The position numbers and the translations under genes were made by a program. A stretch of 64,000 nucleotides of DNA. It comes from Nitrospiraceae bacterium. GTDB taxonomy: Bacteria > Nitrospirota > Nitrospiria > Nitrospirales > Nitrospiraceae. Positions 1,593 through 62,262 of this stretch are shown piece after piece (within the stretch, counting starts at the first letter, position 1; each line of letters starts with the position of its first letter). Where the stretch lies: the NCBI GenBank assembly GCA_009692155.1, contig SHZW01000010.1:25046-89045 (forward strand), in the 5' to 3' direction. The notes under the pieces were generated by a model. It was not told the DNA's origin. It worked only from the letters and a program-made list of their open reading frames with translations, and made no database searches.

Positions 1593-3047
1593 ATGAATCT
1601 CGTGACTGAAGAATTTCTCCAGCGGGTGAGTCGCATTCCGCACCATGGACTCGGTCTGTCCGTGGACGTCTATACGCCCGACCTGCTCGAGCTGGTGGGC
1701 GAATTGGACCGGCGTGAAGTGACCTGTGGCTATCTGGAAATCTTCAAGGCATCTCCAGCCGCACTCGAATTGGTGCGCCGCCGCCTGCCCGATGCCTTGC
1801 TCTCCTACCACGCCGAAGGGCTCTGGGTGACGCAGCCCGATCCGGAACGGCTCTCGCCGTTTGACGCCGAGCTGGACGAGGCTGCCGAACAGCTCAGAAT
1901 CCTCGACAGCCATTGGCTGAACCATGAATGCGCAGCCAAGCAGATGGCCGGCTATACTTTCGGCACCTATTTGCCGGCGCTGTTCACCAAGGCGAACGCC
2001 GAGGTCACGGCGGCGAACATTGCACATGCCCAGCAACGGCTGGACCGGGCCTTTCCCGCGCGTGATGGCCAAGATGGAATGGGCCCGTTGTTCCTGCTTG
2101 AAACGCCGCCGCTCACCTATGTGGGCTTCGGCGACCTGGGCCTGGCGGACTTTTTCCGTCTCGTGACCGATCTCACGCCCTGCGGCGTCGTATTGGACAT
2201 CGGTCACCTCTGGACCGTCTATCGCTACACAGGCGAGTGGCGGCGGTGTCCGCTCACGGCATTCCTGGCCGAGTTCCTGGAATCCTTTCCATTGGAGCGC
2301 GTTGTCGAGATCCACATGGCAGGGCTGGCGCTGCATCCGGGCGCGCCGTCCCAACGTACGACCGGTGAGCCGCCGTTGTGGATTGACGCGCACGGCGCGC
2401 CGATTCCTGACGTGCTCACCGACATGTTGGCGCAGGTACTCGAGCACAAGGGACTGAGTCATCTGAAAGGCGTGGCGTTGGAAGTGGACACCAAGCCGAT
2501 TCCGATGATCGTGGAGGAGTTTGCGGAAGCCCGCCATCGGTTCGAGAGAATGATTGTCCCGCGCCATCGGACCATGCAGCCTCATCCGGCCCGTGAAAAA
2601 TCTTGCCTCGAGCCTCGAGCCTCGAGCCCCGAGCCTGCGGCCAGCAGCCTGGCCGAGCAATACCACCGCTACGCCCAAATTGTCACGGGACGGGCGGCAA
2701 CCGGCTTGCCGGTCCTCGGCCAGGATGCCTCGGCGCTGCCGCTCTATGTCGAGCATTACCTGCCGCACGAGATTCTGGAATGGGGCGGCGCAGTGAGGGA
2801 AATGTTCCCGGAAACCTGCCGGAGCCTGGATCGTGCCGGCATCGCGCTGGATGGATTCGTCCGGTTCTGGTTCCGCGAGCCGCGCGCAACCGGTGAGGCC
2901 TATGACTTTTTCCTCCTGAAGATCGCCCGCTTCATCGAATTTGTCCGCGAAGTGCTGCCGGACACGGCGGAGACGGCCATGCAGGAAGCGCAGGCGTTGC
3001 GAGAAGGCTATCGCGCGGCGAACGAAATGGTTGGAACCGGGAAGTGA
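1593..3047 (+). CDS. DUF692 (MbnB/TglH-like) protein with an extra C-terminal domain
   Basis: The first ~300 residues match DUF692, a TIM-barrel family that holds two or three iron ions and, where studied, modifies peptide cysteines. Visible blocks are HHGLGLSVDVY, LSYHAEGLWV, LLETPPLTYVGF, VVLDIGHLW, VEIHMAGL and a late IDAHG, which supply the His/Asp/Glu ligand set. Residues ~337-354 are encoded by a repeat element. Residues ~355-484 are an extra domain I do not recognise. ATG 1593 is chosen because homology begins within 15 residues and a promoter lies just upstream. The gene overlaps or touches the dus gene, which suggests an operon with dus and maf. No small precursor peptide was seen beside it. 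Confidence 0.8.
   Translation: MNLVTEEFLQRVSRIPHHGLGLSVDVYTPDLLELVGELDRREVTCGYLEIFKASPAALELVRRRLPDALLSYHAEGLWVTQPDPERLSPFDAELDEAAEQLRILDSHWLNHECAAKQMAGYTFGTYLPALFTKANAEVTAANIAHAQQRLDRAFPARDGQDGMGPLFLLETPPLTYVGFGDLGLADFFRLVTDLTPCGVVLDIGHLWTVYRYTGEWRRCPLTAFLAEFLESFPLERVVEIHMAGLALHPGAPSQRTTGEPPLWIDAHGAPIPDVLTDMLAQVLEHKGLSHLKGVALEVDTKPIPMIVEEFAEARHRFERMIVPRHRTMQPHPAREKSCLEPRASSPEPAASSLAEQYHRYAQIVTGRAATGLPVLGQDASALPLYVEHYLPHEILEWGGAVREMFPETCRSLDRAGIALDGFVRFWFREPRATGEAYDFFLLKIARFIEFVREVLPDTAETAMQEAQALREGYRAANEMVGTGK
2603..2656. repeat. Short-word repeat family D inside the DUF692 gene
   Basis: Tandem GCCTCGA words are translated as CLEPRASSPEPAASSLAE. The reading frame stays open, so the element acts as a linker between the iron-binding domain and the C-terminal domain. 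Confidence 0.75.
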
Positions 3048-3052
3048 GCGAC

Positions 3053-60590: not shown

Positions 60591-60720
60591 TACGTATCCT
60601 GGGTATCATGCCCGCGTTGCCCCACCCATAATTGCCGTGATGTCCGGGCGGGCGTATGATGACGCTGATACATACCATAAGATTCGTGGTGAGATAAAGC
60701 TGGATGTGGTGGTGATTCAG

Positions 60721-62262
60721 ATGATGTCCCTTCCCCAACTGGTGCCGAGCCGGGTCTGCCTGAGTTGCGATGTCTGTTGCCGGTTTCCGGAGGCGGAGAG
60801 CTTCCTGCGTCCCTATTTCACGGCGGAGGAAATCCGTCGGGCGGTCGCACGCGGCATCAACCCGGTGCATTTTCCTGATCCGAACGGCTCTCAGATTTCG
60901 GTCGTGCCGAATCCGTCCGGCGAGGGCTATCTCTGCCCGGCCTTCGATCCAGCCACGTCGCATTGCCGGATTTACGAGGACCGGCCGCTGGATTGTCAGA
61001 TCTATCCGCTGGCGGTGATGTGGGGCGCGCCCGTGGAGGGCGCGCAGGCACGGGGCGCGAGGCACGAGGCGCGAGACGAACATGCGGAGGTTGTTCTGGG
61101 CTGGGATGCCAAGTGTCCGTTCATGCGGGAAGCCGTACCGGCGGAGATTCTGGCCTATGCCGGGACCATCACCTCGAGACTTGAACGGGAGGATATGCTC
61201 GCCACTGTGGCCTCCAACCCGCGATTGATCGGGCGGTTTCAGGAGGATGTGGTGATTCTGAATCTGCTGCCGAAGCTCACCGAGCGCTTGCGCGCCAAGT
61301 TCGATGTTCGACGTTCGAAGTTGTCAGAAAACCGCGAACCGCGAACCGCGAACCTCGAACTCCGTGCGTTGACGTCCGCTGATTACGACCGGTTCAGGCA
61401 GGCACTCGCCCGCGTGGAGACTCCGCTGGCTCATTTTGCCCTGGCGCCGCATCTCATTTGGAAAGATCTGTTTCGCTACTCGTGGGCAGAGATTGACGGG
61501 TGCGTCTGTTTCTTTGCCGAGTACGCTGATGGCCTGTTCATGCCTCTTCCCCCTCTTGCGCTTCACGCTTCACGCTTCACGCGCGACGCTCTTGCTGTCT
61601 GCTTCGCGCGGATGCGCGAAACCAATAGGGGTTCTGCTGTCAGCCGGATCGAGAATGTGCCGGAGGAATGGAAGGCGGGATTCGAGGCGGCGGGGTATGA
61701 GGTGAAGCCAAAAGATCCGGACTATCTGTATCGGACGGCTGATCTCGTCGCACTTGCTGGCGACAACTATAAATCCCAACGGGCAGCCTGCAATCGCTTT
61801 GAGCGTGAATACCGGTCTTCGTTCGAGCCCTATCGGGACTCGGATCGGGACGCGTGCCTAGCGCTTTTCCGTGAATGGTCGTCACAGAAACAGGCGGCCG
61901 GACTGGAGGAGACCGGCCGGCATATGCTTGCGGATTCCGAGGCCGCGCACAGGGAAGCCCTCACGTATCACCGCGAGCTGGGGCTGGTCGGTCATGTGGT
62001 TCGGGTGGATGAAAAGGTTCGCGCCTACACCTTAGGCTATGAGCGATCGTCTGCCGTGTTTTGCGTCTTGTTGGAAGTGGCGGACCGGACGGTCCATGGA
62101 TTGGCTTCGTTCATCTTCCGCGAATGCTACCGAGAAGCGGCTGGACGAGGCTATGCGTTCATTAATACGATGGACGATTCGGGCTTGTCGAGCCTGGCGC
62201 AGTCCAAGCGCGCGCACCATCCGATCCGGATGGTGCCGAGTTATATCGTGACAGAATCCTGA
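60721..62262 (+). CDS. YkgJ-type cysteine-cluster plus DUF2156 (LPG-synthase-like) protein
   Basis: 513 residues. The N-terminal ~150 residues are a YkgJ/CxxCxxxCC cluster: CLSCDVCCRFPEAESF, YLCPAFDPATSHCRIYEDRP and LDCQIYPL, probably metal- or Fe-S-binding. The C-terminal ~290 residues fit DUF2156, the acetyltransferase-like domain of phosphatidylglycerol lysyltransferases (YLYRTADLVALAGDNYKSQR, FINTMDDSGLSSLAQSKRAH). Three different repeat families are translated inside the gene. ATG 60721 is used; ATG 60640 is possible. Fusion of these domains is known, but function is not. Confidence 0.8.
   Translation: MMSLPQLVPSRVCLSCDVCCRFPEAESFLRPYFTAEEIRRAVARGINPVHFPDPNGSQISVVPNPSGEGYLCPAFDPATSHCRIYEDRPLDCQIYPLAVMWGAPVEGAQARGARHEARDEHAEVVLGWDAKCPFMREAVPAEILAYAGTITSRLEREDMLATVASNPRLIGRFQEDVVILNLLPKLTERLRAKFDVRRSKLSENREPRTANLELRALTSADYDRFRQALARVETPLAHFALAPHLIWKDLFRYSWAEIDGCVCFFAEYADGLFMPLPPLALHASRFTRDALAVCFARMRETNRGSAVSRIENVPEEWKAGFEAAGYEVKPKDPDYLYRTADLVALAGDNYKSQRAACNRFEREYRSSFEPYRDSDRDACLALFREWSSQKQAAGLEETGRHMLADSEAAHREALTYHRELGLVGHVVRVDEKVRAYTLGYERSSAVFCVLLEVADRTVHGLASFIFRECYREAAGRGYAFINTMDDSGLSSLAQSKRAHHPIRMVPSYIVTES
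61041..61084. repeat. Short-word repeat family D, copy 6, inside the YkgJ-DUF2156 gene
   Basis: GCGCAGGCACGGGGCGCGAG, GCACGAGGCGCGAGACGAAC, read in frame as GAQARGARHEARDEH within the cysteine-cluster domain. Confidence 0.8.
61299..61361. repeat. Short-word repeat family L inside the YkgJ-DUF2156 gene
   Basis: GTTCGATGTTCGACGTTCGA, then ACCGCGAACCGCGAACCGCG, AACCTCGAACTC. Read as FDVRRSKLSENREPRTANLE at the junction of the two domains. Confidence 0.8.
61555..61590. repeat. Short-word repeat family M inside the YkgJ-DUF2156 gene
   Basis: Three tandem CTTCACG words (GCGCTTCACGCTTCACGCTT), read as ALHASRFTRD in the DUF2156 domain. Confidence 0.75.

Follow-up and report, generated by a model that had tools for sequence, protein, structure and literature searches.

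We analysed a stretch of 64,000 nucleotides from an uncultivated Nitrospiraceae bacterium (positions 25,046-89,045 of contig SHZW01000010.1, called the window below), in which short repeats are read as protein inside unrelated genes. The repeat peptides are probably in-frame stretches of two-armed elements that are built of seven-base words (heptads) and predicted to form hairpins. The copies at gene ends would mostly come from genes that run into an arm, and the copies inside genes would be insertions that survived. It is likely that the protein loops which hold the latter are tolerant landing slots rather than purpose-built linkers. We observed directly that the arms are paired, that they have a polarity with stop codons in the 5' arm, that the words are common to several genera, that the same loops are occupied repeatedly, and that sister species carry different words there. 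An earlier note on this DNA had described the in-frame repeats and proposed that they serve as ready-made linkers; the observation is real in substance, and the linker reading is not supported.

Form and vocabulary of the heptad arrays

The arrays were surveyed in 28 stretches of the genome that holds the window (G000; 1.93 Mb, 27 contigs, 89.6% complete), the window included. The sample comprised 575,214 nt, with 484.7 kb of coding sequence and 90.5 kb between genes. Genes were called with our own predictor, which takes the first start codon, and many predicted starts are therefore uncertain. The genome-wide threshold was one at which each of five shuffles yields 0-1 matches. The window contains eight arrays of period 7, compared with none in each of five shuffles, and the whole sample contains 78, compared with 0, 0, 1, 1 and 1. 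Period 8 gave 25 arrays, period 9 gave 22, and the remaining lags between 5 and 11 gave at most 7 each. An excess of period 7 over other periods, as found here, is a property of simple tandem heptanucleotide repeats (LSSR). Of the 78 arrays, 31 were intergenic, 16 lay at an edge, 10 at a gene start, 5 at a gene end and 16 in the interior of a gene, so that they were densest between genes. The claim that the same words fill intergenic gaps was thus confirmed, with intergenic copies far above chance.

An inverted partner arm (score of at least 12, within 90 nt) was found at 21 of the 31 intergenic arrays, where 1.6 were expected from the flanks of other arrays. The corresponding figure for edge arrays was 10/16 (1.4 expected), and the two groups jointly gave 31/47 against about 3 expected. 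Partners were present at 3/10 gene-start arrays (0.8 expected), 1/5 gene-end arrays (0.2 expected) and only 4/16 interior arrays (1.2 expected). They also accompanied 20 of the 25 period-8 arrays (7 in one null draw) and 12 of the 22 period-9 arrays (4 in one null draw). In each of the 29 paired elements a spacer (median 30 nt) separates an arm from its inverted counterpart, and the median total length is 84 nt. When the predicted RNA folding of each was compared with 60 dinucleotide shuffles, z was -2 or lower in 28 of the 29 (median -4.4), a result which is partly circular because the elements had been preselected for pairing. The 78 arrays use 44 canonical words, and the units differ within an array. 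Such variable units, together with the partners at most intergenic arrays, do not describe one near-perfect direct repeat lacking paired arms.

The vocabulary is common across genera of the family. In other genomes, 288 loci contained 174 arrays, of which 64 use a word from the G000 list, as compared with 8.4 expected and a maximum of 19 in 200 letter shuffles; these loci include same-genus genomes and orthologous places, and some of the matches are inherited. Within G000, 59 pairs of separate elements have a common word (3.0 expected).

Gene ends, gene starts and protein loops

The two arms differ in composition: G exceeds C in 17/19 of the 5' arms, and C exceeds G in 19/20 of the 3' arms. 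Among 46 intergenic or edge arrays, the G-rich orientation has stops in all three frames in 24, and the C-rich orientation has no stop in any frame in 21. Gene-end arrays are G-rich in sense in 5/5 cases and predicted gene-start arrays are C-rich in sense in 9/10. In 19 of the 29 paired elements, the stop codon of the upstream gene lies inside the first arm (8) or at most 20 nt before it (11). LOG, NadB and Fhs each read into a G-rich 5' arm and terminate there, so stop-filled G-rich 5' arms account for most protein ends among the named cases. The elements at gene ends, gene starts and the DUF692 linker are as follows.

319-407, unstranded: paired heptad hairpin element of AGGCGAG words (z -5.0); LOG (380-1489, minus strand) stops in its arm at TAG
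2605-2635, plus strand: C-rich array of GCCTCGA heptads within the DUF692-HvfC linker, the length of which varies across aligned relatives
3059-3115, plus strand: 57-nt heptad insert, CACTCAG, after Dus codon 2
18704-18822, unstranded: hairpin element of AAGTGAA words (z -2.0); NadB terminates in its G-rich arm at 18758
25506-25532, minus strand: CGAGGCT heptads ahead of the signal-peptide-like stretch in the second M16 peptidase, whose start codon is uncertain
41348-41422, unstranded: hairpin element, GTGACGA (z -7.8), after Fhs, whose TGA stop is in the arm

The Fhs tail amounts to three codons and a stop codon within the arm. At this place the sister species of the same genus (G001) has a AGGGGTAA-type 8-nt repeat hairpin (by eye). 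At the NadB end, similar words were seen by eye in G001 and G007, that is, in three species of two genera. The start of Dus reads as a clean insertion between codons 2 and 3, since 30 of 35 relatives begin with M-[SNT]-F-W and the window protein has MS, 19 additional residues and FW. The best named Dus relatives are Nitrospirota metagenome-assembled genomes with at most 72% identity, in a listing from which the same or very near genomes are possibly excluded. One further locus (L012) has a different heptad array at the same gene start. As for the M16 peptidase, the start is ambiguous and the signal-peptide-like stretch could begin downstream; the N-terminal peptides of 16 aligned relatives (compared as peptides only) are unlike that of the window and unlike each other. 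We did not accept this start as an insertion because of the uncertain start codon. The DUF692 linker was likewise not taken as a hot spot, as heptad-type sequence was seen there in the window only (by eye, peptides only).

Inside genes, arrays were found at the following positions, which in the YkgJ-DUF2156 gene make four arrays in three loops.

54926-55017, minus strand: TIGR04283 glycosyltransferase, two-arm element (5' arm 55017-54989, 3' arm 54950-54926)
59489-59518, minus strand: lone CTCAGTC/CTCAGCA array of the 3' type within the ATP-grasp-like gene (58524-59996)
61047-61078, plus strand: YkgJ-DUF2156 slot A, GGCGCGA, 16-aa insert
61299-61360, plus strand: YkgJ-DUF2156 slot C, two-arm hairpin with a GTTCGA arm and a CGCGAAC arm (z -3.3)
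61559-61582, plus strand: YkgJ-DUF2156 slot D, lone 3'-type array, TTCACGC

The arms of the glycosyltransferase element pair weakly (score 9-10). The predicted peptides encoded by arms include LSTQDSALSTQH and KFDVRRSKLSENR. In total, nine open reading frames have in-frame heptad arrays: LOG, DUF692, Dus, NadB, M16, Fhs, TIGR04283, ATP-grasp-like and YkgJ-DUF2156. The earlier note had named at least eleven proteins; dcd and kamA carry a different palindrome, and among the nine the Fhs case is trivial and M16 is uncertain. The glycosyltransferase, ATP-grasp-like and YkgJ-DUF2156 loops are insertions relative to order-level relatives and many family relatives. The peptides said to be absent from their families are therefore indeed insertions in orthologue alignments, as regards the interior ones and Dus.

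To compare the loops, orthologue rows were scored at the DNA level (period-7 score of at least 9; window counted). The slots were defined from the window's own arrays, and YkgJ slot B was added later, after inspection of relatives. A period-7 array was present in 6 of 28 glycosyltransferase rows, in 12 of 30 ATP-grasp rows, and in 1, 4, 8 and 6 of 30 YkgJ rows at slots A, B, C and D, respectively. At slot A, among 29 other aligned loci, an insert occurs in L199 alone and is of a different kind. A further type of coding repeat, PLTPALSPKGRGG...GRGEGEG, was noted in YkgJ loops A or D of L199, P0006, P0022 and P0024. In 86 orthologous open reading frames of other genomes for the three proteins, 44 arrays fell in slots (8.9 kb) and 3 outside them (107.6 kb), and the slot positions are not random within the proteins. 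Some relatives have entire hairpins read in frame at a slot, for example L177 at YkgJ slot D. Orthologues outside the lineage with the same segments would have spoken against the earlier note; a period-7 array was found in 0 of 15 order-level slot rows (11 glycosyltransferase, 3 YkgJ, 1 ATP-grasp).

Within the genus, the words at a slot change. At slot C the window has GTTCGA, G001 has GGCGCGA-like words and G002, a further genome of the genus, has GTGACGC. At slot D the window has TTCACGC, G001 a 9-nt repeat (by eye) and G002 GGCAATC-like words. The glycosyltransferase loop holds GGCGCGA in the window, is empty in G001 and is of the QWAIGD type in G002, where the copy is cut by the contig end. 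The intergenic elements of the window that bear on this comparison or belong to the same kind are given below.

23176-23272, unstranded: hairpin element, CGTAATC words, intergenic (z -5.8)
24092-24166, unstranded: paired heptads, AGGCGCG, intergenic
55177-55258, unstranded: hairpin element, TTATGGC, intergenic (z -7.5); G001 uses the same words here but has one heptad less
55712-55781, unstranded: hairpin element, CTATGGC, intergenic; same word class in G001

Among eight array slots in the part syntenic with G001, two have the same word class, four have other repeat words and two are empty; at YkgJ slots C and D the repeats of the sister were judged by eye and are below the period-7 threshold. 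The hairpins of the two species in the 33.3-kb gap differ by eye, without period-7 scores, and were excluded from this count. Word classes kept at the NadB end and at the two intergenic slots in G001 indicate that some copies are inherited, and others differ.

Loop peptides were sorted with our own patterns in the best 120 of 6969 glycosyltransferase proteins and the best 120 of 869 YkgJ proteins, and 6 unparsed rows were omitted from each set. Out of 114 classified glycosyltransferase loops, 10 were empty, 4 were assigned to 'other' and 100 fell into eight kinds; at YkgJ slot D, 49 of 114 loops were empty. The peptide patterns of slot C parsed badly and were left uncounted. On quick trees, the class changed 41 times in the glycosyltransferase loop (shuffled mean 68) and 44 times at slot D, or 35 times with the 'other' class left out (shuffled mean 53). 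Some glycosyltransferase pairs that are sisters on the quick tree differ wholly (P0132/P0144, P0155/P0188). We rejected these changes as counts of insertions because they come from quick trees of the best 120 proteins with our own classes, and recombination or chimeras are possible.

Kept frame can be explained by survival. Of the 138 orientation-frames of 23 paired intergenic or edge elements, 26 are stop-free, and for single arrays the number is 150/282. Since one length in three is a multiple of three, these fractions would let 6-18% of random insertions pass. The density of interior arrays is 1/15.7 to 1/10.4 of the intergenic density, i.e., 6-10%, and survival of harmless copies therefore suffices, with no need for special frame-keeping or benefit. 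The earlier statement that the frame is kept each time holds in that the in-frame copies are real; it carries little information for gene-end copies and is a survivorship expectation for interior ones.

Explanations for the in-frame copies

In the explanation that we consider probable, the elements would insert as units and selection would remove the copies that break a frame. The interior survivors are likely those that preserved the frame, introduced no in-frame stop codon and landed in a loop that tolerates them. The hairpin would form in RNA or in single-stranded DNA, and new insertions or allelic recombination may later replace what a loop holds. Odd recurring peptides of Nitrospirota (SALSTQ, FEVRGSK, QWAIGD and VTRHPS types) would then be readings of hairpin arms, which calls for caution when start codons are called and domains annotated. 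Close relatives show empty, one-armed, full and different-word alleles at fixed loops, a natural insertion series from which the cost of an in-frame repeat could be measured. As a more tentative proposal, the elements may be family-wide exchangeable hairpin cassettes with a shared vocabulary of 7-, 8- and 9-letter words, in which fixed slots, intergenic ones as well as those in protein loops, keep the two-armed form and the entire word is exchanged between closely related species. If so, one enzyme loop would be multi-allelic, with different repeat peptides across lineages, and the class of coding repeats would be defined by form and vocabulary, not by sequence descent.

Several results weigh against insertion into tolerant loops. 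The spacers of the G000 copies mostly differ from copy to copy, a pattern not predicted if whole units are copied. Copying of units with their spacers was rejected, as the 97 non-self matches from the 29 elements covered mostly arms only; the few that span the spacer have ~69-78% identity, values that forced arm pairing could produce. At the two slots compared between sister species the arms showed no co-variation, and selection for the hairpin gets no support from them. At 55.7 kb the own pairings scored 16 and 18 and the crossed ones 21 and 14, and at 55.2 kb the values were 19 and 13 and 18 and 12, so compensatory change was dropped. Near-identical loop peptides recur at distant points of the protein tree, so that recombination or chimeric metagenome contigs must play a part and may explain some of the apparent replacements. 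The density is patchy: at a stricter threshold, period-7 arrays were found in 4 of 11 genomes and in none of the other 7 (73-80 kb each), G001 being one of the seven in the stretch sampled. In the structure model of YkgJ, slots A and C overlap segments with a predicted local distance difference test (pLDDT) value <50, as do two other stretches, and slot D, modelled with good confidence, sits between a strand and a helix. The model of the glycosyltransferase is poor, with pLDDT <50 in the middle of the insert and likewise in much of the C-terminal half. The models thus weakly support tolerant loops.

A short seed at each slot might instead grow in place: 7-nt polymerase slippage would lengthen it, template switching at the hairpin would produce the mirrored arm, the words would drift where they are and nothing would move. 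Such growth agrees with the dominance of period 7 (78 arrays versus 1-25 at lags 5, 6 and 8-11), with the difference of one heptad between the sister species at 55.2 kb and with the mostly unshared spacers, and a heptanucleotide bias linked to polymerase slippage has already been proposed (PMC4679880). We consider it unlikely, since the recurrence of words between loci and genera is far above chance and would not result from drift, empty and full loops differ by entire two-armed units, and the arms at the two slots lack co-variation. Active mobility by a dedicated enzyme, as of repetitive extragenic palindromic (REP) sequences by REP-associated tyrosine transposases (RAYTs), would account for the common vocabulary and for the repeated occupation of the same loops with differing contents. 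We also regard it as improbable: Y1 transposase (PF01797) and reverse transcriptase (PF00078) gave 0 matches in G000, G001 and G002 (76-95% complete; the search covered these two families), on which ground copying by a RAYT or a reverse transcriptase was rejected, and there is no common sequence or clearly shared spacer. For the active spread suggested earlier the results are mixed: loop contents change between sister species, but the two kinds of copying enzyme searched for were not found and copies do not clearly share spacers.

Selection might maintain the repeats as useful linkers or contingency switches, which could be argued from slots that recur across many genera and from one allele common to some relatives (FDVRRSKL...). 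Words and occupancy change, however, empty alleles are found in both proteins classified, and the interior density, 10-16 times below the intergenic one, is not above that predicted by the filter, whose pass rate needs no benefit; we find this explanation, and with it the proposed ready-made linkers, very unlikely. Intrinsic terminators that genes happen to enter are equally hard to accept, despite stable predicted hairpins right after stop codons. A stem followed by a T-rich tail (at least 6 of 10) was seen at only 4 of the 29 elements, and the terminator reading was rejected on this count; of 23 intergenic arrays in the first sample, 20 have co-directional neighbouring genes (166/241 gaps in the background), there are copies inside genes, and a scan for promoters and terminators showed no excess. 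Finally, the genomes are mostly metagenome-assembled and repeats can create chimeras, but an assembly artefact is extremely improbable: G012 (40 contigs, 100% complete) carries heptads at three YkgJ slots, B, C and D (locus L183); in G013, a single contig of 4.7 Mb, period-7 arrays are present in the sampled 80 kb; and the inserts occur in proteins from many contigs.

Related repeat systems and other repeats of the window

The closest known kinds are the Rickettsia palindromic elements (RPE) and the heptanucleotide elements of Geobacter metallireducens. RPE are described as ~150 bp long, with families that encode a conserved peptide (PMC10969869). The window elements resemble them as palindromic repeats found in frame within unrelated genes and elsewhere in the genome. 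They differ in their smaller median length, their construction from heptads, the lack of a shared spacer or conserved peptide, and the different words that one loop holds in different species. For G. metallireducens, tandem heptanucleotides in 49 copies within and between genes have been reported, along with a separate class of five tandem heptanucleotides paired on opposite strands (PMC2700814). Pairing of tandem heptads on opposite strands is found here too; each class there has one consensus, whereas the elements described here have many words in one architecture, and their protein slots hold different words across a family. The TAACTGA repeats of Beggiatoaceae (PMC4679880) and the GGGAATC and GGGGA(T/C)T repeats of Xanthomonas and Nostoc (PMC4692102) are heptanucleotide repeats, mostly intergenic and partly coding. 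As far as their descriptions go, they are single words, mostly direct, and paired arms are not their rule.

REP sequences and bacterial interspersed mosaic elements (BIME) are, like the elements here, short and mainly intergenic palindromes (PMC2817692). They have RAYT transposases, whereas the G000 assembly gave no PF01797 match, and no conserved REP sequence is present in our case. QMITE2 of Coxiella lies mainly 3' of genes and can provide a C-terminal extension with a stop codon, as the G-rich arms do; it is described as a conserved family sequence of 150-190 bp with direct repeats (PMC5896051). The window elements are defined by form and vocabulary, not by one sequence. In the titles and abstract openings of the literature matches listed, with most subscription journals outside the coverage, we found no paper on such elements in Nitrospirota.

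The window also contains repeats of other periods and an inverted pair of a different type.

7336-7384, 7392-7434, 8982-9059 and 9818-9918, unstranded: 9-nt-period arrays, GTCTGTTCA / ACAAACCAG
16428-16472, unstranded: 9-nt-period array, GTCTGTTCG
22575-22612, unstranded: 8-nt-period array, GGGGTAAA
56950-57118, unstranded: inverted pair, not heptads, at the dcd and kamA ends, CCTTCGAACTGACTCAGG ... CCTGAGCCATGTCGAAGG

The 9-nt (GTCTGTTCA) and 8-nt (GGGGTAAA) arrays resemble the same kind of element with a different unit length. No heptad array was found in the dcd/kamA region (56925-57123). A palindrome related to the pair there, CCTGAGCNNGTCGAAGG, has exact matches in 19 of 31 genomes, with one in G000 and 27 in one genome, and is a separate class from the heptad elements. 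A MazE/PemK-like pair (~5051-5622, Pfam) in 4885-5672 is flanked by similar short palindromes, AAGGTCGCATTTTGCGACCTT, GAGGTCACAAATTGTGACTTC, GGTGGTCACAATCTGTGACCACT and TTGATATCGCAATTTGCGATATCAA; the core of AAGGTCGCATTTTGCGACCTT occurs once in G000 and once in G001 among 21 genomes searched. At 48410-48640, tandem units of 102 nt, unrelated to the heptads, encode TPR repeats of a 561-aa protein.

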